A stretch of DNA of 64,000 bases, taken from positions 5,097,001 to 5,161,000 of the forward strand of contig CP031740.1 of NCBI GenBank assembly GCA_022701275.1. Direction: 5' to 3'. The notes beneath the pieces are model-generated. The model did no database searches and had not been told where the DNA came from. It saw only the letters and a program-made list of their open reading frames with translations. This DNA comes from Microcoleus vaginatus PCC 9802 (GTDB lineage: Bacteria > Cyanobacteriota > Cyanobacteriia > Cyanobacteriales > Microcoleaceae). The position numbers and the translations under genes are program-made. Of this stretch, positions 17,053-28,837 are shown piece by piece (position 1 is the first letter of the stretch; each line of letters starts with the position of its first letter).

Positions 17053-18582
<1,530 letters not shown>

Positions 18583-18592
18583 TTAAAAATCA

Positions 18593-18678
18593 CCGCGCAA
18601 GTTTGGGGAGCTTTTTTTAGTAAACCTATGGCTAAACCTAATAGGGTCTGTATGTAAGCTCTCGCGATTGGGGCGCGG
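18593..18678 (-). ncRNA. Y-RNA-like small RNA D (short form)
   Basis: CCGCGC pairs with GCGCGG at the ends. Inside come CCCCAAU on the 5' side and AAACUUG on the 3' side, then the helix AGAGCUU with AAGCUC(C). The loop is a simple hairpin (CCUAU with AUAGG) without a tRNA-like arm. The 5' word AGCUUACAUAC is identical to that of RNA B. It lies between the Ro60-like gene and the 153-residue gene, so it may be cut from their common transcript. Confidence 0.6.
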
Positions 18679-18701
18679 CAAAAACTGCGATTTGAAATTA
18701 A

Positions 18702-19163
18702 CTATTTCAGGGAAACTGTTTCTAATTCTATCGCTCTCAAATCTGGTTCAACCCAGTTATTTCGAGCTTCCCAAGACATCAGCCGATCGCGCGTGTAGTA
18801 GCGAAATGGTAAAGTGCGATCGGCATATTTTGCAATCAAACCGTTAGCAAGATTTACCATCGATCGATTCCGGCTTTCATCGGCGAGATACCGGCGAATA
18901 GTTCGCACCCAAAACAGCGTTAGGGTTTCGTGATATCCGCCATCTTTTGTAGTCTCAATTCCCTGAACCGAGTTGTAACGTTTAATGCCATTCCGCACCG
19001 CATTTATCGCTTCTTGTTCCGAATCATAAAACAGATACCAAAGGGCAACGGTTAAATGCGCTTCGTGCGTCCATTGACTTCGCGGCAGGCTGCATTCTTG
19101 GAAAGCGTGAATCAGACTGTCTATCTCGCTGGGCGATCGGTAAATTAGAGTTGTATTTTTCAT
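18702..19163 (-). CDS. Conserved hypothetical protein, 153 aa
   Basis: The protein contains QWTHEAHLTVALWYLFYDSE and VRNGIKRYNSVQGIETTKDG followed by GYHETLTLFWVRTIRRYL. This WTHxAHL...GYHExxTLFWxR pattern belongs to a widespread family without known function; the conserved His residues suggest a metal or active site. GAGGAG lies nine bases before the ATG. It sits between Y-RNA-like genes A and D and upstream of the Ro60-like gene, so it may belong to that unit. Confidence 0.65.
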   Translation of the reverse strand: MKNTTLIYRSPSEIDSLIHAFQECSLPRSQWTHEAHLTVALWYLFYDSEQEAINAVRNGIKRYNSVQGIETTKDGGYHETLTLFWVRTIRRYLADESRNRSMVNLANGLIAKYADRTLPFRYYTRDRLMSWEARNNWVEPDLRAIELETVSLK

Positions 19164-19218
19164 AATTTAAGTCTCCTCACACACCACTGTTCTATCTAAC
19201 TTTTTATAAAGATGAGAT

Positions 19219-19362
19219 GTTCCGCACAAGTTTACAAAGCGTTTTGACTGTCCGATGGCTCTACCCCTGAGCTACAGCCCCTTAAACGGGGCTGGCAGGA
19301 TTTGAACCTGCGACAAATCGATTATAATGTGTGTATTCGCTTCACTCGTTAGGGTGCGGAAC
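19219..19362 (-). ncRNA. Y-RNA-like small RNA A with a permuted tRNA-like module
   Basis: The ends pair as GUUCCGCA with UGCGGAAC. A conserved internal loop has CCCUAAC opposite AAACUUG, followed by the helix GAAGCG/CGCUUU. The inner module reads, in order: a T-arm (GCAGG, UUCAAAU, CCUGC), an acceptor stem closed by a loop (CAGCCCC, GUUUAA, GGGGCUG) and a D-arm (GUAGCUCAGGGGUAGAGC). This is a tRNA in circularly permuted order without an anticodon arm. The outer part matches RNAs B, C and D. Confidence 0.75.
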
Positions 19363-19454
19363 AAAATTTTTCTAATCTCTAAACTAGAAAGTTTTGACTT
19401 GTGATTCTTCTAAATTGCTCAATTATTTTTGCCTTTTATAGCATTAAAAGTCAC

Positions 19455-19579
19455 TCCACGCAAGTTAAGAAAGCCGTTGGCACATACGCAGGAGTTGAAC
19501 CCGCGACCTTTTCCTTAACAGGGAATTGCTCTACCAATGAGCTAGTATGTAAGCTTCCTTTGTTGGGGCGCGAAGTGGA
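19455..19579 (-). ncRNA. Y-RNA-like small RNA B with a complete tRNA-like module
   Basis: The outer stem pairs UCCAC with GUGGA, followed by GC pairs. CGCCCCAAC lies opposite UAACUUGCG and GGAAGCU pairs with GGCUUUC. The module is a complete cloverleaf in normal order: ACAUAC with GUAUGU as acceptor, the D-arm AGCUCAUUGGUAGAGC, an anticodon-like loop CUGUUAA (GUU, as in Asn) and the T-arm GCGGG, UUCAACU, CCUGC. It is embedded inside a longer RNA, so its ends would not be free for charging unless RNase P and Z cut it out. Confidence 0.72.
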
Positions 19580-19623
19580 ACTTTTAAGCGCCTGAAAGAT
19601 ATAAAAAATTCAGCTATAAAAGG

Positions 19624-19740
19624 CAGCGCACAAGTCAGAGAAGCTTTGTTTCAGCCTCACGGCAAGTAGGACTCGAACCTACAATTCGATTTTAAGTCGA
19701 ACGTATCCAGTTTGTAAGCTTCTTTAGTTGGGGTGCGCTG
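19624..19740 (-). ncRNA. Y-RNA-like small RNA C with T-arm and anticodon-like arm
   Basis: CAGCGCAC pairs with GUGCGCUG at the ends. CCCCAACU lies opposite CUGACUU and AGAAGCUU pairs with AAGCUUCU. The module has an anticodon-like arm (UUCGA, loop CUUAAAA, UCGAA), a perfect T-arm (GUAGG, UUCGAGU, CCUAC) and a short stem closed by a GNRA-type tetraloop (GCC, GUGA, GGC) where the acceptor would stack. A full D-arm is missing. This is a second example of a closed acceptor position. Confidence 0.75.
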
Positions 19741-19765
19741 TCTAATACGTGCTTTAAGTGAATTT

Positions 19766-19978
<213 letters not shown>

Positions 19979-20089
19979 CTAGAGCAATGTTGGATTTTGG
20001 ATTAGTAGCTTATCTGCTCTCGACTTTGGCTTTTTGTGAGACTTAGCAAATTGCCAGTATCGGTAAAGATTCACGAAATCTGATAATCT

Positions 20090-20368: not shown

Positions 20369-20421
20369 GAATTGGCACGAAAAATACAGGTTTTTGCTTG
20401 TCCTGCGCTTTCCATATTTAT

Positions 20422-20450
20422 ATACTACATTCATACTACACAAGTGTCAA
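20422..20450 (-). promoter_or_regulatory. Promoter of the Y-RNA/66-aa unit
   Basis: The minus strand reads TACCCCCTTGACA, 17 bases, then TAGTAT followed by ATAAAT. The same -35 context and -10 are found before the tRNA array at 28808-28837. TTGACA is a consensus -35 box. Confidence 0.65.
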
Positions 20451-22281: not shown

Positions 22282-23511
22282 CTACTTGAGAATGTGGGAG
22301 ACGACACCGGCGCCGACAGTGCGATTACCTTCGCGGATGGCAAAACGCATATTTTGTTCGATCGCGATCGGCTGCAACAACTTCACAGTCATATTAACGC
22401 GATCGCCCGGAACTACCATGTTGATCGCGCTTCCGTCATCAGCCGTAAAAGATGCGATCGTACCTGTAACATCCGTTGTCCGCACGTAGAATTGAGGGCG
22501 ATATCCCGCAAAGAAAGGAGTTCGGCGGCCGCCTTCTTTATCCGACAGCACGTAAACCTCAGAATCGAATTCAGTGTGAGGTTGAATAGAACCGGGTTTA
22601 GCAAGCACCATCCCCCGCTCAATTTCGTCTTTTTGGATGCCACGAAGCAACAAACCGACATTATCTCCAGCCATTCCTTCATCCAGAAGTTGCTGGAACA
22701 TTTCAACACCGATAACAGTTATCGTGCGAGTGTTTTGGATTCCCACCAATTCCACAGTATCGCCGACTTTGATTTTACCGCGCTCGATTTTGCCAGTTGC
22801 GACAGTTCCCCGACCTTTGATCGAGAACACATCTTCAACAGCCATCAGAAAAGGTTTGTCAATATCGCGATCGGGCGTAGAAATCCAGTCATCTACCGCA
22901 TCCATCAAATTGTAAATGCCATCAACCCACTCATCCTCGCCGCGGTGTATTTTCGGATTAGCAGTCATCTTTTCCAGCGCTTTCAGTGCGGAACCTGCGA
23001 CAATTGGAATATCATCGCCTGGAAAACCGTAAGAACTGAGAAGTTCGCGAATTTCTAACTCGACCAACTCCAAAATTTCCGCATCGTCCACCATATCTTT
23101 CTTATTCAAAAAGACAACCAACTTCGGCACTCCCACTTGCCGCGCTAACAAGATATGTTCGCGAGTTTGAGGCATCGAACCATCTGCCGCCGACACGACG
23201 AGGATTGCACCATCCATTTGAGCGGCACCCACGATCATGTTTTTCACGTAATCAGCGTGACCCGGACAATCAACGTGAGCATAATGGCGATCGCCTGTTT
23301 CATACTCAACGTGAGCCGTATTAATCGTGATTCCCCGCTGTTTTTCTTCCGGTGCAGCATCGATTTCATCGTACTTTTTAGCCTTGGCCCGACCCTGTGC
23401 AGCCAGCGTCATTGTAATCGCCGCTGTTAAGGTTGTTTTGCCGTGGTCAACGTGACCGATCGTACCGACATTGACGTGGGGTTTGTTCCGTTCAAATTTG
23501 GTGCGTGACAT
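22282..23511 (-). CDS. tuf: Elongation factor Tu, apparently an extra divergent copy
   Basis: 409 residues with all EF-Tu parts: [13 protein letters not shown] (P-loop), [13 protein letters not shown] (switch 1), [12 protein letters not shown] with the catalytic His, NKKDMVDD, and the C-terminal [19 protein letters not shown]. It delivers aminoacyl-tRNA to the ribosome. The usual cyanobacterial tuf is in the str operon after rpsL, rpsG and fusA; none of these is here. From memory the sequence differs at many sites from standard cyanobacterial EF-Tu, for example DGSMPQ instead of DGPMPQ and [20 protein letters not shown]. Two tRNA genes lie upstream on the same strand, as in the tRNA-tufB operon of E. 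coli. The ATG is the conserved start. Confidence 0.93.
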
Positions 23512-24526: not shown

Positions 24527-24907
24527 TTACAACAATTTTACATCGTACTGTTTGAACCTATCGTCATGTGTAATGATAGTGTAATCTTCTGCTTGGGCTT
24601 GAGAAATAATTAGGCGATCGAAAGGATCTTGATGGTAAAAAGGAAGATTTTGCAATTTATCGTAATGGAGGAACTTAGTTTCTAGAATTTGAAAGTCGTG
24701 GTCGAGCAGAAAAATTTCTAACTCCGACACAGAAATAGACAAAGACAACTTACCGATGCTGATTTTGATAGTAAGCTCCCACAGACTCGCTTGGCTGATA
24801 TAGATTTCATTGACAGGATTAGCAATCAGCGAGCGCACATACTCATCAAGCCGAGCGTTACCTTCAACAAACCAAATTAGAATGTGAGTGTCAATTAGAT
24901 ATTTCAT
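24527..24907 (-). CDS. vapC: PIN-domain toxin, VapC family
   Basis: The PIN acidic residues are visible: Asp in YLIDTHILIW, Glu in ASLWELTIK, Asp in HQDPFDRLIISQA and Asp in IITHDDRF. VapC toxins are metal-dependent RNases; characterised members cut initiator tRNA, other tRNAs or the sarcin-ricin loop of 23S rRNA. The start overlaps the antitoxin stop as ATGA. The pair lies directly downstream of the tRNA array on the same strand. Confidence 0.85.
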   Translation of the reverse strand: MKYLIDTHILIWFVEGNARLDEYVRSLIANPVNEIYISQASLWELTIKISIGKLSLSISVSELEIFLLDHDFQILETKFLHYDKLQNLPFYHQDPFDRLIISQAQAEDYTIITHDDRFKQYDVKLL

Positions 24908-25246: not shown

Positions 25247-25256
25247 TAATTAAAAG

Positions 25257-25337
25257 GAAGATGAAGGAATCGAACCCTTACAGTTACCTGTACCCCAGTT
25301 TTCAAGACTGGTTGCCAACCATTTAGCGGCATCTTCC
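25257..25337 (-). tRNA. tRNA-Ser(UGA)
   Basis: Acceptor GGAAGAT/ATCTTCC, anticodon loop CTTGAAA (UGA), a long variable arm as expected for Ser, and T-loop TTCGATT. Confidence 0.88.
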
Positions 25338-25341
25338 CAGG

Positions 25342-25416
25342 GGTGTCTGACGGGAATTGAACCCGCTATTACTGGTTCCACAAACCAGCGCCGCTACCGC
25401 TTTGGCTTCAGACACC
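25342..25416 (-). tRNA. tRNA-His(GUG)
   Basis: Acceptor GGTGTCT/AGACACC, anticodon stem CTGGT/ACCAG with loop TTGTGGA (GUG), and T-loop TTCAATT. Confidence 0.88.
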
Positions 25417-25421
25417 GCAAG

Positions 25422-25494
25422 TGGAGTCAAGGAGAATCGAACTCCTGGCCTCTTGCGTGCAAAGCAAGCGCTCTACCAATTGAGCTATGACCCC
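25422..25494 (-). tRNA. tRNA-Ala(UGC)
   Basis: Acceptor GGGGTCA/TGACTCC with the G3-U70 pair that marks Ala, anticodon loop TTTGCAC (UGC), and T-loop TTCGATT. Confidence 0.92.
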
Positions 25495-25551
25495 GCGTAA
25501 AAGATTCACCTGTGGAGTAAATCTAAAATCTAAAATCTAAAATTGGTGTGG

Positions 25552-25626
25552 TGGATTGCGATCGGATTTGAACCGATATCTTTCTAACAGCCAGTTAGAT
25601 GCTTTACCAATTAAGCTACGAACCCC
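25552..25626 (-). tRNA. tRNA-Ala(GGC), weak acceptor stem
   Basis: Anticodon stem TCTAA/TTAGA with loop CTGGCTG (GGC) and T-loop TTCAAAT. GGGGTTC and GCAATCC pair imperfectly in the acceptor (two mismatches), but a G3-U70 pair is kept. A TCTAAAA repeat precedes it at 25520-25543. Confidence 0.7.
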
Positions 25627-25632
25627 AGACAG

Positions 25633-25706
25633 CAGGAGCGGTAGGACTTGAACCCACAACATTCGAGGTAGAAGCTCGACACTCTATCCAGTTGAGTTAC
25701 ACTCCC
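25633..25706 (-). tRNA. tRNA-Arg(UCU)
   Basis: Acceptor GGGAGTG/CGCTCCT (G1-U72), anticodon stem TCGAG/CTCGA with loop CTTCTAC (UCU), and T-loop TTCAAGT. It directly follows the rRNA-mimic RNA in transcript order. Confidence 0.85.
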
Positions 25707-25781
25707 ATGTTTTTTGTTAATGCGCGATTCCCTACGGGATAGCTGCGCTTAACGCACTTTGACGTGCAAGTTATCAGAGCA

Positions 25782-25967
25782 TTGCGTTTTCTCAATTACT
25801 AGAGGGACTCCCCCGATGAGTTACTACACACTCTTTAAAGGATGGCTACCTTTAAGCCAACCTGCCGGGTTCATGGCACTCCTCGTTCGCAAACGCCCGC
25901 TGATTTTGACAGCGTTACCTTTCCTCTCGTACTAAAGTATGTAGGCTCCAAAGATTGGGACACGCAA
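25782..25967 (-). ncRNA. Ribosomal SRL-GAC mimic RNA inside the tRNA array
   Basis: On the minus strand UUGCGU (25962-25967) can pair with ACGCAA (25782-25787) and encloses a branched domain. Its first arm (25917-25938) has the exact sarcin-ricin core UAGUACGAGAGGA of 23S rRNA on a different stem (ACUUU with AAAGGU). Two small hairpins follow (CGCUG/CAGCG and CGUU/AACG). The last arm (25812-25869) matches the L11-binding GTPase-associated center, E. coli 1051-1108: it keeps GUUGGCUUA (with A1067), UUUAAAGA (with A1088) and GUGUA (with A1095). In 23S rRNA the two elements are about 1.5 kb apart and in the opposite order. No tRNA lies in this 333-base gap. Confidence 0.7.
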
Positions 25968-26039
25968 AGGGCGATCGCTCTTAATATAAAAAATTATCCA
26001 TTCAATGGAATCAACCTCCTTAAATTAAAGCAAAAACAA

Positions 26040-26112
26040 CGAGAGTGGCAGGACTTGAACCCACAACATCCGCGTCCGAAGCGCGGCGCTCTATCCATTG
26101 AGCTACACTCCC
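26040..26112 (-). tRNA. tRNA-Arg(UCG)
   Basis: Acceptor GGGAGTG/CACTCTC, anticodon stem CCGCG/CGCGG with loop CTTCGGA (UCG), and T-loop TTCAAGT. Confidence 0.88.
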
Positions 26113-26120
26113 ATAAATGG

Positions 26121-26192
26121 TAGTCCTGACAGGAGTTGAACCTGCAACATCTTGCTTGTAAGGCAAACGCTCTACCGTTGAGCTACAGGACT
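26121..26192 (-). tRNA. tRNA-Val(UAC)
   Basis: Acceptor AGTCCTG/CAGGACT, anticodon stem TTTGC/GCAAG with loop CTTACAA (UAC), and T-loop TTCAACT. Confidence 0.9.
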
Positions 26193-26197
26193 ACAAA

Positions 26198-26269
26198 AGC
26201 GGATGATGGGACTCGAACCCATGCGCTGAGAATGGCATACTCAGATGCTAGCCGCTACATGACATCCGC
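26198..26269 (-). tRNA. tRNA-Gly(GCC)
   Basis: Acceptor GCGGATG/CATCCGC, anticodon loop ATGCCAT (GCC) above a U-U mismatch, and T-loop TTCGAGT. Confidence 0.85.
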
Positions 26270-26300
26270 AAACCGATTTAAAATTTGAGATTTTGGGCTT

Positions 26301-26580
26301 AACTGAGATGTTGCACCATTGTCAATAAGCCTTTTATGAATAGGCAAGATGCCTGTTCCACAAGAAAATCTATTCTTTGTGGAACAGGCATCTTGCCTGT
26401 TCTGGAGAATGGTGCAAGATGTGAGATTTGAGATGTGAGATTTGAGATTTAACTGAGATGTTGCACCAGTGTCAATAAGCTTTTTATGAACAGGCAAGAT
26501 GCCTGTTCCACAAGAAAATCTACTCTTTGTGGAACAGGCATCTTGCCTGTTCTGGAGAATGGTGCAAGATGTGAGATTTA
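26301..26580. repeat. Two 150-bp palindromic units inside the tRNA array
   Basis: Two copies with a 150-bp period begin with TTGCACCA at 26311 and 26461. Each contains AGGCAAGATGCCTG, TTCCACAAGAAAATCTA and TTTGTGGAACAGGCATCTT, then ends with TGGTGCAA, so each can fold into one long hairpin. The same words occur at 7883-8045. There is no transposase; it looks like a MITE-type or REP-type element that doubled in place. Confidence 0.8.
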
Positions 26581-26600
26581 ACAAAATTATTGTTTCGCCA

Positions 26601-26671
26601 AGCGGATAACGAGGCTCGAACTCGTGCCTAGAGTTTGGAAGACTCGAATGCTACCGTTACACCATATCCGC
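26601..26671 (-). tRNA. tRNA-Gly(UCC)
   Basis: Acceptor GCGGATA/TATCCGC, anticodon loop CTTCCAA (UCC), and T-loop TTCGAGC. Confidence 0.88.
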
Positions 26672-26679
26672 AATTGTGG

Positions 26680-26753
26680 GGCTGGTGATAGGAATTGAAC
26701 CTACAACCGACTGATTACAAATCAGTTGCTCTGCCTAATTGAGCTACACCAGC
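26680..26753 (-). tRNA. tRNA-Thr(UGU), copy 1
   Basis: Acceptor GCTGGTG/CACCAGC, anticodon stem ACTGA/TCAGT with loop TTTGTAA (UGU), and T-loop TTCAATT. Confidence 0.9.
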
Positions 26754-26759
26754 ACGCCA

Positions 26760-26831
26760 AGCAGATGGCGAGATTTGAAATGGCCAGAAAGCTTTACAAA
26801 AGCCTCATGTTGCCAATTACATCACACCTGC
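26760..26831 (-). tRNA. tRNA-Thr(UGU)-like, copy 2, abnormal T-arm
   Basis: Acceptor GCAGGTG/CATCTGC, D-arm ATGTAATTGGCAACAT and anticodon loop TTTGTAA (UGU). The T-arm reads GGCCA, TTTCAAATC, TCGCC: a 9-base loop and a C-C mismatch. It is probably a degenerate duplicate. Confidence 0.6.
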
Positions 26832-26840
26832 ATTTTTGGT

Positions 26841-26914
26841 GGCGGGGGCAGGAGTTGAACCTGCTATTAAGAGGCTTATGAGACCTCCAAGCCTACCCAG
26901 GCTACTTCACCCGC
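26841..26914 (-). tRNA. tRNA-Met(CAU), copy 1
   Basis: Acceptor GCGGGTG/CCCCCGC with one mismatch, anticodon loop CTCATAA (CAU), and T-loop TTCAACT. The D-arm CCTGGGTAGG recalls initiator tRNA, but the C1-A72 mismatch and three G-C anticodon pairs of initiators are absent. An Ile-accepting CAU tRNA cannot be excluded. Confidence 0.75.
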
Positions 26915-26926
26915 GATGTCACCAAA

Positions 26927-27000
26927 TACCCCTGACTGGCATCGAACCAGCACTAACTAGATCCTAAATCTAGCGCCTCTACCGATTGGGCTACAGGGGC
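26927..27000 (-). tRNA. tRNA-Leu(UAG) on a class I body
   Basis: Acceptor GCCCCTG/CAGGGGT, anticodon stem CTAGA/TCTAG with loop TTTAGGA (UAG), and T-loop TTCGATG. The variable region is only five bases (TTAGT), whereas bacterial Leu tRNAs have a long arm. Confidence 0.75.
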
Positions 27001-27051
27001 AAAACTGATTTTAGATTTTAAATTTTAGATTTTAGATTGAATAAAACCTCA

Positions 27052-27127
27052 TACCCCTGACAGGCCTCGAACCTGCAAAAAACACTCGTTTTGAGCGAGT
27101 GATGTTTTCCAATTACATCACAGGGGT
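27052..27127 (-). tRNA. tRNA-Leu(CAA) on a class I body, copy 1
   Basis: Acceptor ACCCCTG/CAGGGGT, D-arm ATGT-ACAT, anticodon stem ACTCG/CGAGT with loop CTCAAAA (CAA), and T-loop TTCGAGG. The variable region is about seven bases and unpaired. Confidence 0.72.
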
Positions 27128-27131
27128 AAAG

Positions 27132-27204
27132 TCGGGATGGTTGGATTTGAACCAACGACTCCATGCTCCCAAAGCATGGCTTCTGGCCGCTGAATTACAT
27201 CCCG
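27132..27204 (-). tRNA. tRNA-Pro(UGG)
   Basis: Acceptor CGGGATG/CATCCCG, anticodon stem CATGC/GCATG with loop TTTGGGA (UGG), and T-loop TTCAAAT. Confidence 0.9.
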
Positions 27205-27208
27205 TTCA

Positions 27209-27289
27209 TGCTCCTAGTGAGACTCGAACTCACACTCAAAATAAAACAGATTTTAAGTCTGCCGCGTCTGCCAATTCCGCCACAGGAGC
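27209..27289 (-). tRNA. tRNA-Leu(UAA), intronless
   Basis: Acceptor GCTCCTG/TAGGAGC, the Leu-type D-arm GCGGAATTGGCAGACGC, anticodon loop CTTAAAA (UAA), a long variable arm, and T-loop TTCGAGT. There is no group I intron in the anticodon loop, although many cyanobacterial trnL-UAA genes have one there. Confidence 0.9.
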
Positions 27290-27315
27290 AAGTAGAAACT
27301 TAGTTAAAAATTTGG

Positions 27316-27389
27316 TACTCCTGGTGAGATTTGAACTCACACAACACAATTTTTGAAATTGCGGCCTCTGCCAATTGGGCTACAGGAGT
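27316..27389 (-). tRNA. tRNA-Leu(CAA) on a class I body, copy 2
   Basis: Acceptor ACTCCTG/CAGGAGT, anticodon stem GCAAT/ATTGT with loop TTCAAAA (CAA), and T-loop TTCAAAT. The variable region is five bases. The D-arm is like that of Leu(UAG) at 26927. Confidence 0.7.
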
Positions 27390-27418
27390 GTAATTGATCT
27401 GCTTTGGTAATAGCAGAA

Positions 27419-27492
27419 CTGGGAAGGCAGGGATCGAACCTGCATTTTTCCGCTTTCAAAGAGCGGTGCCATACCGATTAGACGACTTCCCA
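27419..27492 (-). tRNA. tRNA-Gln(UUG)
   Basis: Acceptor TGGGAAG/CTTCCCA, anticodon stem CCGCT/AGCGG with loop CTTTGAA (UUG), and T-loop TTCGATC. Confidence 0.9.
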
Positions 27493-27501
27493 ATAATTGG
27501 G

Positions 27502-27575
27502 TGCCGGGGTAGGCTTTGAACCTACAGAAACTCCTATTTCAGAGATAGGCGACTTTACCAATTTGTCTACCCGGC
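27502..27575 (-). tRNA. tRNA-Gln(CUG)
   Basis: Acceptor GCCGGGT/CCCCGGC with one mismatch, anticodon stem CCTAT/ATAGG with loop CTCTGAA (CUG), and T-loop TTCAAAG. Confidence 0.82.
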
Positions 27576-27589
27576 AATTTAAAAAATGG

Positions 27590-27661
27590 CTGCCCCAGTA
27601 GGACTCGAACCTACAACCTAGCGGTTAACAACCGCTTGCTCTACCATTGAGCTATAAGGCA
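27590..27661 (-). tRNA. tRNA-Asn(GUU)
   Basis: Acceptor TGCCTTA/TGGGGCA with two G-U pairs, anticodon stem AGCGG/CCGCT with loop TTGTTAA (GUU), and T-loop TTCGAGT. Confidence 0.88.
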
Positions 27662-27667
27662 ACGCAA

Positions 27668-27740
27668 TCCCCCAAGTCAGTATCGAACTGACGACCTCTT
27701 GTTCTTCAGACAAGCGCTCTACCAACTGAGCTATCGGGGG
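27668..27740 (-). tRNA. tRNA-Phe(GAA)
   Basis: Acceptor CCCCCGA/TTGGGGG, anticodon stem CTTGT/ACAAG with loop CTGAAGA (GAA), and T-loop TTCGATA. Confidence 0.9.
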
Positions 27741-27744
27741 AAAA

Positions 27745-27831
27745 CGGAGAAGGAGGGATTTGAACCCTCGACGGCTGTTAAACCGCTCTTTCTTAGCAGG
27801 AAAGCGCCTTAAGCCACTCGGCCACCTCTCC
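27745..27831 (-). tRNA. tRNA-Ser(GCU)
   Basis: Acceptor GGAGAGG/CTTCTCC, anticodon stem CTTTC/GAAAG with loop CTGCTAA (GCU), a long variable arm, and T-loop TTCAAAT. Confidence 0.9.
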
Positions 27832-27835
27832 ACAC

Positions 27836-27909
27836 CGAAAACGGAGGGATTTGAACCCTCAATCTTCAGTTTTATTAACTGAGATGTTATCCGGCTACAC
27901 CACGTTCTC
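27836..27909 (-). tRNA. tRNA-like gene, anticodon undetermined
   Basis: Acceptor GAGAACG/CGTTTTC, D-arm GTGT-ACAT and T-arm GAGGG, TTCAAAT, CCCTC are good. The anticodon stem TCAGT/ACTGA closes the loop TAATAAA, which has A instead of U at position 33 and would give AUA. Such a loop is not normal for any elongator tRNA. Confidence 0.6.
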
Positions 27910-27943
27910 AAAATTGCAACTGCGGATTAAATGCAGTTACAAA

Positions 27944-28025
27944 TGGGTCGGGCTGGAATTGAACCAGCAACGCTTTAAGCTACTGTTTTACAGACAGCTA
28001 CCCACGCCAGTAGGAGGGCCGACCC
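27944..28025 (-). tRNA. tRNA-Tyr(GUA)
   Basis: Acceptor GGGTCGG/CCGACCC, anticodon loop CTGTAAA (GUA), the long variable arm of bacterial Tyr tRNA, and T-loop TTCAATT. Confidence 0.88.
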
Positions 28026-28032
28026 AGTTTGG

Positions 28033-28106
28033 AAGTGCTGACGGGAGTTGAACCCGCAATCACTTGGGTGAAAACCAAGCGGCTTAAACCATTTGCCTAC
28101 AGCACT
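28033..28106 (-). tRNA. tRNA-Glu(UUC)
   Basis: Acceptor AGTGCTG/CAGCACT, anticodon stem CTTGG/CCAAG with loop TTTTCAC (UUC), and T-loop TTCAACT. In cyanobacteria charged Glu-tRNA also feeds tetrapyrrole synthesis; whether this copy can do so is unknown. Confidence 0.88.
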
Positions 28107-28115
28107 ATAAATTGG

Positions 28116-28187
28116 CACAGGAACTGAGATTTGAACTCAGAATGCTGGTTTTGGAGACCAGAGTGTTGCCAGTTACACCATCCCTGC
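28116..28187 (-). tRNA. tRNA-Trp(CCA)
   Basis: Acceptor GCAGGGA/TTCCTGT with G-U pairs, anticodon stem CTGGT/ACCAG with loop CTCCAAA (CCA), and T-loop TTCAAAT. Confidence 0.88.
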
Positions 28188-28193
28188 TTGTGG

Positions 28194-28265
28194 TCGCAGC
28201 GGCCGGAATTGAACCCGCATTGACCAAGGTATGAACTTGGCGCTTTACCATTAAGCTACGCTGCA
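28194..28265 (-). tRNA. tRNA-Met(CAU), copy 2
   Basis: Acceptor TGCAGCG/CGCTGCG, anticodon stem CCAAG/CTTGG with loop TTCATAC (CAU), and T-loop TTCAATT. One T-stem mismatch is present. It could also be an Ile2-type (CAU) tRNA. Confidence 0.8.
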
Positions 28266-28367
28266 ATGTCACTTTCGCTTCGTTCCTTTTCAAAGTTAAA
28301 AAATTCAATTAAAAGACTGTTAGTTTAATCTTTTAATTTCTATTTTTTAATTTCTGATTAGAAACAG

Positions 28368-28441
28368 AGGTTAGGGCGGGATTTGAACCCGCGCAATTCG
28401 GTTTTGCAGACCGACGCCTTCAACCACTCGGCCACCTAACC
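28368..28441 (-). tRNA. tRNA-Cys(GCA)
   Basis: Acceptor GGTTAGG/CCTAACC, anticodon stem TCGGT/ACCGA with loop CTGCAAA (GCA), and T-loop TTCAAAT. Confidence 0.9.
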
Positions 28442-28444
28442 TGG

Positions 28445-28516
28445 GAGTCCCGACGAGGTTTGCACTCGCAATCTTCTCCTTGAGGGGGAGACGGCTTGAC
28501 TTTTGCCTACGGGACT
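28445..28516 (-). tRNA. tRNA-Glu(CUC)-like, degenerate loops
   Basis: Acceptor AGTCCCG/CGGGACT is perfect. The anticodon stem TCTCC/GGAGA closes the loop CCCTCAA, giving CUC but with C instead of U at position 33. The T-loop is TGCAAAC. It resembles the Glu(UUC) gene at 28033 and may be its decayed copy. Confidence 0.6.
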
Positions 28517-28520
28517 TTGA

Positions 28521-28594
28521 CGGGAGTAACGAGACTTGAACTCGCAACCTTTCGCTCGACAGGCGACTGCTCTGACCGGTTGAGCTATACCCCG
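28521..28594 (-). tRNA. tRNA-Asp(GUC)
   Basis: Anticodon stem TCGC/GCGA with loop CTGTCGA (GUC), D-arm GCTCAACCGGTCAGAGC and T-loop TTCAAGT. The acceptor CGGGGTA/TACTCCC has a C1-C72 mismatch. Confidence 0.82.
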
Positions 28595-28756: not shown

Positions 28757-28807
28757 TATTGCTCGTGGGGTAAAGCTTTGAAGCTCTTTCCCCTTCGCCA
28801 TACATTT

Positions 28808-28837
28808 ATACTACATTACGTATTACAAGACTGTCAA
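28808..28837 (-). promoter_or_regulatory. Promoter of the tRNA array
   Basis: The minus strand reads TACCCCCTTGACA, 18 bases, then TAGTAT followed by AAATG. The -35 box is consensus and its flank is the same as at 20422-20450. The first array element begins about 100 bases downstream. Confidence 0.7.

Follow-up and report, generated by a model that had tools for sequence, protein, structure and literature searches.

The window analysed here is a stretch of 64,000 nucleotides from the cyanobacterium Microcoleus vaginatus PCC 9802 (assembly GCA_022701275.1, contig CP031740.1, positions 5,097,001 to 5,161,000). Its minus strand carries an array of 30 tRNA genes and, in a second operon, a set of small predicted RNAs together with a gene for a divergent Ro60/Rsr-like protein (Table 1). 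Between tRNA-Arg(UCG) and tRNA-Arg(UCU) of the array, on the same strand as both, lies a predicted RNA that joins a copy of the sarcin-ricin loop (SRL) of 23S rRNA to a copy of the GTPase-associated center (GAC). The SRL copy comes first and the GAC copy about 50 nt after it, an order opposite to that in 23S rRNA. The parts of this SRL-GAC RNA follow one another as P1, P2, SRL, P4, and then a P5-P6-P7 arm with the GAC at its end. An initial annotation had recognized the two elements, their spacing and their reversed order correctly; it had placed them at 25782-25967, where they do lie, within a predicted RNA that is slightly longer.

Table 1. Features of the SRL-GAC RNA, its siblings and the neighbouring operon (window coordinates)
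Feature	Position	Strand	Remarks
tRNA-array promoter	28803-28837	minus	TTGACA ... TGTAGTAT over the -10 (TrcR-type boxes); sequence-based
Array of 30 tRNA genes	25254-28594	minus	encloses the SRL-GAC RNA
SRL-GAC RNA	25757-25969	minus	about 213 nt, predicted ends; predicted Y RNA with ribosome-mimicking domain
P1 lower stem, 5' strand	25961-25969	minus	CUUUGCGUG; two-sided changes in 8 of 9 pairs
Internal loop, 5' side	25954-25960	minus	CC(C/U)AA(C/U) type; precedes P2 5' strand
P2 upper stem, 5' strand	25945-25948	minus	GAGC; two-sided changes in 5 of 7 P2 pairs
UACAUAC	25937-25943	minus	99 of 101 copies; tRNA acceptor stem in tRNA-bearing siblings
SRL copy	25922-25934	minus	UAGUACGAGAGGA; core AGUACGAGAGGA
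P4 variable hairpin	25898-25914	minus	CGCUG/CAGCG; two-sided changes in 5 of 5 pairs
GAC copy	25812-25869	minus	E. coli 1051-1108; base triple and U1060-A1088 retained
P2, 3' strand	25777-25780	minus	GCUC
Internal loop, 3' side	25767-25772	minus	AACUUG; after GCUC of P2
P1, 3' strand	25757-25766	minus	CACGUCAAAG; one bulged base in the window copy
Sibling-RNA/Ro60-like operon promoter	20417-20450	minus	two TGTAGTAT boxes, TrcR-type; sequence-based
Sibling scaffold RNA, partial tRNA	19624-19740	minus	UAA anticodon arm and T arm
Sibling scaffold RNA, tRNA-Asn(GUU)	19452-19577	minus	acceptor stem built from UACAUAC
Sibling scaffold RNA, permuted tRNA, YrlA-like	19218-19363	minus	RF02553, 37.7 bits, E=2.2e-6, gathering score 69
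Sibling scaffold RNA, short hairpin cargo	18590-18681	minus	directly upstream of the Ro60-like gene
Divergent Ro60/Rsr-like protein gene	17053-18492	minus	479 aa; helical N-terminal half and vWA domain with DKSGSM

The GAC copy retains 42 of the 58 bases of E. coli 1051-1108, and likewise 42 of 58 when it is compared with the 23S rRNA of its own genome. It thus differs from the E. coli sequence at 16 positions, not at the 11-15 first counted, and it retains A1067, A1088, A1095 and U1060 (E. coli numbering), as had been claimed. Its match to the genome's own 23S rRNA has E=1.6e-8 and a local score of 44, compared with a maximum of 27 among 200 shuffles. When a covariance model of the RNA family is applied to E. 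coli 23S rRNA, the GAC reaches 56.5 bits (E=2.9e-18), and the bacterial large-subunit rRNA model (LSU_rRNA_bacteria, RF02541) exceeds its gathering score in 4 of the 12 homologue loci searched (52.1-52.7 bits), so that the rRNA likeness proposed from the sequence is borne out by covariance models. The SRL 13-mer taken alone is not significant (E=0.05; the highest-scoring of 200 shuffles does just as well); its assignment is convincing because 96 of 101 copies carry the core unchanged.

These copies come from related cyanobacteria. We extracted 103 of them, excluding nhmmer places below 110 bits, and counts over 101 copies omit one with a run of N (L100) and one with a mismatched 5' end (L102). 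U1060 and A1088 are retained in all 101 copies and A1095 in 88. Bases 1072, 1092 and 1099, which we take to form a base triple in 23S rRNA, read CCG in E. coli and in the genome's own 23S rRNA and UUA in 97 of the copies; of the remainder, one reads CCG (all three bases changed), two read CUA and one reads UUG. The bases around E. coli 1046-1050 and 1109-1113, presumably the H42 kink-turn that holds L10, are strongly conserved and form a putative kink-turn in the copies as well. Because U1060 and A1088 are invariant and the changes in the triple are coordinated, the predicted mimicry of 23S rRNA is constrained down to tertiary contacts. Base 1067, presumably a contact of EF-G and thiostrepton in 23S rRNA, is A in 69 copies, G in 25, C in 6 and U in 1.

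DNA searches found matches in 28 of 61 genomes of the family and in 110 of 388 genomes of the order, some of which are real 23S GACs. Full-length matches to the covariance model (>160 bits) number 22 and fall in 21 of the 386 phylum genomes searched, every one of them within the window's own class. The model also gave many matches of 48-61 bits, mostly on the GAC part, which we take as a group to be true 23S rRNA because the 23S rRNAs of E. coli and of the genome itself score 49-57 bits. Among the matches listed from an exact-pattern scan (80 of 114 stretches), the carriers include Microcoleus, Nostoc, Okeania, Moorena, Fischerella, Calothrix and Oscillatoria; two of the listed stretches are labelled as non-cyanobacterial metagenome-assembled genomes. 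Six genomes (G079, G126, G143, G163, G365 and G432) hold two SRL-GAC copies, one of which is sometimes degenerate (L083b). A phage origin was considered and rejected, as the phage collection gave no match and an exact pattern found none in viral contigs.

Covariation was assessed in an alignment of 49 copies, selected at <90% identity from the 99 distinct copies considered. A hand-drawn structure of 46 pairs is paired in 91.4% of its cells, and 33 of the pairs show two-sided changes; such cells number 250, compared with a shuffled mean of 89.5. None of the five measures was reached by any of 500 shuffles (0/500), and versions of the structure that were slid along the alignment pair in only 36-52% of cells. 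RNAalifold, unaided, found 38 pairs, 26 of them with compensatory change. The pairing of P6 (75%) is, by eye, an underestimate, because this helix is misaligned in one clade (L109 and its kin). An outer helix, UUGCGU with ACGCAA, had been proposed to close the domain, and we reject it for lack of covariation: its GCGU/ACGC core can pair in 94% of cells, owing to base conservation, yet 379 of 500 shuffles pair as well, as do 298 of 500 for a five-pair version that includes, besides the four core pairs, one that had not been proposed. Those bases covary instead with different partners, within P1 and P5, and the closing stem is P1, formed by CUUUGCGUG and CACGUCAAAG.

The SRL-GAC element is therefore a conserved predicted RNA with a covarying fold. 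A 23S rRNA pseudogene inserted at random among tRNA genes could account for a partly 23S-like sequence, and the initial annotation had left room for this. The covariation already refutes that explanation, the probability of which we regard as negligible: compensatory changes extend across many genera, matches occur in the 110 genomes of the order mentioned above rather than at a single place, the coordinated triple change is absent from both the genome's own and the E. coli 23S rRNA, and the two elements stand in reversed order.

The stem that carries the two elements is not peculiar to them. The SRL-GAC covariance model also matches the minus strand of the window at 19452-19577 (33.4 bits), 19622-19742 (32.2 bits) and 18589-18682 (24.9 bits). 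These three siblings share an outer stem and an internal loop of the form CCCCAA(C/U) ... GCUUACA(U/A)AC / ... ACUUG but differ in cargo, and in all the two-part stem is common to the SRL-GAC RNA and four other RNAs of the window. UACAUAC, which pairs with the 3' strand of the tRNA acceptor stem in siblings, is retained in the SRL-GAC RNAs despite the absence of this partner. Y RNAs are defined by 5' and 3' ends that form a stem whose lower and upper parts are split by a bulged region (PMC4030889). In the SRL-GAC RNA both P1 and P2 covary, and an internal loop lies between them. As a candidate site for the conserved bulged cytosine recognized by Ro60, nearly all copies have CC at the start of the 5' side of the internal loop. 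Siblings with permuted tRNAs match the Y RNA family YrlA (RF02553) at E=2.2e-6 to 1.5e-4, three of these YrlA-like matches lying in the five other loci searched; the window's SRL-GAC copy itself gave no YrlA match.

A scaffold rule was scanned over the window and 60 fetched loci (61 loci, 818,783 bases), most of which had been selected for holding the protein gene and a few of which came in pairs from one genome. It gave 200 matches in 56 loci, 196 of them non-overlapping (4 pairs overlap). The reversed sequences yielded no match at all, and neither did 98,746 bases of other sequence scanned before. By an automatic rule, which overlooks many SRL-GAC copies including that of the window, the cargo of the 200 is a tRNA in 78, a partial or permuted tRNA with a T arm in 46, short in 31, SRL-GAC in 12, helices 69 to 71 (H69-H71) of 23S rRNA in 9, and other in 24. 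Read by motif, H69-H71 cargo (around E. coli 1916-1941) is present in 13 RNAs in 13 loci, and in 8 of the 13 a short match to about 1904-1913 comes after it, which makes it a piece permuted around the H69 loop. These RNAs are about 180-195 nt long (L183:3088-3271, L189:10036-10223, L216:5291-5481, and ten other loci). A search of the window's own genome with an exact pattern found no H69-H71 mimic, its sole match being in the 23S gene.

The scaffold RNAs cluster near the gene for the Ro60/Rsr-like protein, which in the window lies 7 kb from the SRL-GAC RNA. An AlphaFold model of this protein matches Ro60/Rsr end to end, a ring of helical repeats and, after it, a vWA domain making up a single fold, and the DxSxS residues of its metal-ion-dependent adhesion site type motif (D302, S304 and S306, in DKSGSM) are invariant in 42 aligned sequences. 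On the strength of the model, the protein appears to have a Ro60 fold; its sequence is too divergent for the Pfam TROVE profile. For the co-occurrence of gene and RNA, 11 of the 110 matching genomes of the order were dropped as true 23S GACs by score and position (G255 being uncertain). Counted across genomes regardless of their relatedness, the gene is present in 98 of the 99 RNA-bearing genomes, and all 43 of the 43 pairs within 5 kb are on the same strand. Protein coordinates were used for 133 of the 136 genomes with the protein; the three weak ones (G027, G122 and G252), none of them among the genomes listed with the RNA, were counted as lacking the gene. The sibling-RNA operon also contains two small genes, both on the minus strand, at 19769-19985 (about 65 aa) and 18702-19163 (about 153 aa), neither of them assigned to a Pfam family.

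Both window operons carry predicted promoters of the TrcR type, in which TTGACA is followed by a TGTAGTAT-type box that overlaps the -10 element. In Anabaena 7120, TrcR is reported to repress through such boxes at a trn operon of 26 tRNAs, at rtcB and at other genes, and chloramphenicol, spectinomycin and streptomycin relieve the repression (PMC10272220). The SRL-GAC RNA lies about 2.8 kb downstream of the array promoter. Across the 61 loci we found 30 TrcR-type promoters in 28 loci, compared with 3 in reversed sequences, and for each of the 30 a same-strand scaffold RNA is listed downstream, at 47 to 9,097 nt; for the array promoter of the window, the RNA so listed is a different one from the SRL-GAC RNA. 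Between the two TrcR-type operons is a second complete EF-Tu gene (22282-23511, minus), 80% identical to the other full-length copy at C1:5438531. In Salmonella, rsr, Y RNAs and rtcBA constitute one RNA-repair operon that is induced by tRNA damage, which offers an analogy (PMC7790460).

We consider it very probable that the SRL-GAC RNA is a Y RNA linked to Rsr. The fuller reading that we favour, with somewhat better than even confidence, is that it would be a Y RNA with a ribosome-mimicking domain on a stem bound by Ro60/Rsr, acting as a decoy under translational stress; the decoy action taken separately, with the Y RNA identity granted, falls a little short of an even chance. This reading draws on the two 23S elements, the covarying fold, the shared stem, the gene linkage, the Ro60-fold model and the TrcR-type promoters. 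As the copy of a ribosomal site sits on a stem shared with tRNA-copying RNAs near a Ro60-like gene, a stress-induced decoy would be its likely role. The RNA would be transcribed and stable, and the Ro60/Rsr-like protein would bind the stem made up of P1, the internal loop and P2. Derepression of TrcR during translational stress may switch the RNA on, and its effector domain would then present the factor-binding site of the ribosome as competitive bait, not as an adaptor, to SRL-cutting toxin ribonucleases or to translational GTPases. The siblings may offer other pieces that translation-directed ribonucleases cut, namely tRNAs and the H69-H71 region. More tentatively, many cyanobacteria might possess a modular "ribosome-in-pieces" shield: one Ro60-type protein with a battery of Y RNAs, each showing one vulnerable piece (intact tRNAs, permuted tRNAs, H69-H71, or SRL and GAC), all of them made available, along with a spare tRNA array, when translation is under stress, as bait for the ribonucleases and factors that attack such pieces. 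The initial annotation had proposed an undescribed RNA that mimics the elongation-factor site of 23S rRNA and might serve as a decoy; this fits our findings, although the carrier stem and the Ro60/Rsr-like protein had been missed.

The same domain might instead tether. As an adaptor, it would bring the Ro60/Rsr ribonucleoprotein (RNP), perhaps with PNPase as in RYPER, to L10, L11 or translational GTPases and so steer quality control or repair of the 50S subunit. The tip base 1067 varies more than the GAC core and the H42 bases do, a pattern to be expected of an RNA that binds proteins of the L11 or L10 type, and the Y RNA of Deinococcus radiodurans is reported to tether Rsr to PNPase (PMC8394870, PMC7790460). 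The tRNA cargo of most sibling RNAs is less simply explained in this way, and we regard the adaptor as rather unlikely, ranking the decoy just ahead of it. A sponge for a translational GTPase, for example the second EF-Tu encoded between the two operons, which would slow elongation under stress, is improbable in our estimate. SRL and GAC do jointly make the factor site, and Munishkin and Wool reportedly found in 1997 that EF-G binds in vitro to oligonucleotides of the SRL and of the GAC in isolation, which would suit such a sponge; the variation at base 1067 does not. With A at 1067 in only 69 of the 101 copies and a GAC core that is nearly invariant, a simple binder of EF-G or of the thiostrepton site is weakened. 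A thiostrepton-site sponge is disfavoured by the same base.

Several observations weigh against the decoy Y RNA that we favour. The YrlA matches of the siblings (37.1-37.7 bits) do not reach the gathering score of 69, Rfam 15 contains no family that matches the window's SRL-GAC copy even at E<=10, and the loop-motif consensus of the scaffold is partly built in because the scaffold rule requires the loop motifs. Sequence-level homology of the protein to TROVE is weak or negative by all three approaches: Pfam TROVE (PF05731) has no match in the whole genome, a profile comparison with ten TROVE proteins gave 0.7%, and a PDB profile search gave E=0.63; the AlphaFold model itself is of moderate confidence (pLDDT 70.4, pTM 0.54). 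The co-occurrence, in which related genomes count separately, leaves 35 genomes with the gene in which no SRL-GAC RNA was detected and one (G073) with the RNA and no gene. Base 1067 is too variable for a straightforward bait for EF-G or thiostrepton. Kasugamycin and penicillin are reported not to have relieved repression by TrcR, the kasugamycin result being the one that counts here, and loss of the trn operon left the resistance of a trcR mutant to kasugamycin and β-N-methylamino-L-alanine (BMAA) unchanged (PMC10272220). YrlA is also reported to be uncut by the anticodon nuclease that it might inhibit (PMC7790460).

Some of these points would suit a separate RNP class, in which stem and protein share the layout of Y RNA and Ro60 without sharing their ancestry. 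The absence of a sequence-level TROVE match and the subthreshold YrlA scores are of this kind, as is the situation at ten canonical cyanobacterial TROVE loci: a looser scaffold rule gave 6 chance-like matches there, none with the 5' loop motif of the scaffold, and a tRNA with an insertion in its anticodon arm is present instead. The whole-length Ro60 fold match and the YrlA matches of the permuted-tRNA siblings argue for common descent, and we judge a separate class improbable. The inserted tRNAs of those canonical loci (L358-L367) have a long anticodon-arm insertion and are perhaps fusions of a tRNA and a Y RNA.

Ribosomal-protein leaders, such as the L10 leader, mimic rRNA, and the SRL-GAC RNA resembles them as a non-rRNA RNA that copies a protein-binding site of rRNA. 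Unlike them, it does not lead an mRNA: it is encoded between tRNA genes or close to the gene for the Ro60-like protein, and it joins two rRNA elements that are distant from one another. The same two elements were used as free RNA in the "ribosome in pieces" work of Munishkin and Wool in 1997, where the SRL and thiostrepton-domain oligonucleotides are said to have been synthetic and separate; here both occur in one natural predicted RNA. The closest counterpart is YrlA with Rsr: both systems have RNA ends that pair into a stem divided in two by an internal loop, with AACUUG next to its lower part, a mimic domain of modular design (permuted tRNAs in siblings of the window type), genes near that of a Ro60-fold protein, and a link to the response to translational or tRNA damage. 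They differ in that the cargo here is SRL with GAC, H69-H71 or intact tRNAs, that many mimics occur per genome, that the protein lies beyond the reach of Pfam TROVE, and that the promoters are of the TrcR type. The trn operon (L-array) of Anabaena 7120 resembles the window array in its long series of tRNA genes and in the TGTAGTAT box that overlaps its -10; the SRL-GAC RNA is a feature noted here for the window array, and the sections of the TrcR paper covered here mention no rRNA-like RNA (PMC10272220).

A Ro60 protein together with a Y RNA that bears a modular mimic is an established plan. As far as we have seen, what is new is that the cargo is rRNA, how many different mimics occur, the divergence of the Ro60-like protein, and control of the TrcR type. 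A literature search, which most subscription papers lay outside, found no rRNA-mimicking Y RNA and no RNA uniting SRL and GAC, so that absence in print is unproven. The bacterial Y RNAs in the portions of the literature examined mimic tRNAs; because scaffolds of the same plan carry the 23S factor-binding site and H69-H71, mimicry would extend to rRNA elements touched by factors or toxins. This would join three topics so far apart, namely stress-induced tRNA arrays of cyanobacteria, the TrcR repressor and Ro60-type RNPs, and would make the purpose of Y RNA effector domains (decoy, tether or gate) testable. A natural small RNA that unites SRL and GAC could also be a tool for studying translational GTPases off the ribosome.

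Two further features adjoin the array and its RNA. A dispersed repeat (25722-25760, minus) abuts the 3' end of the SRL-GAC RNA, and the best part of this repeat (query 279-331) has matches at 29 further sites in the genome. A gene for a PIN-domain (VapC-like) protein lies beside the tRNA array at 24527-24907, also on the minus strand.
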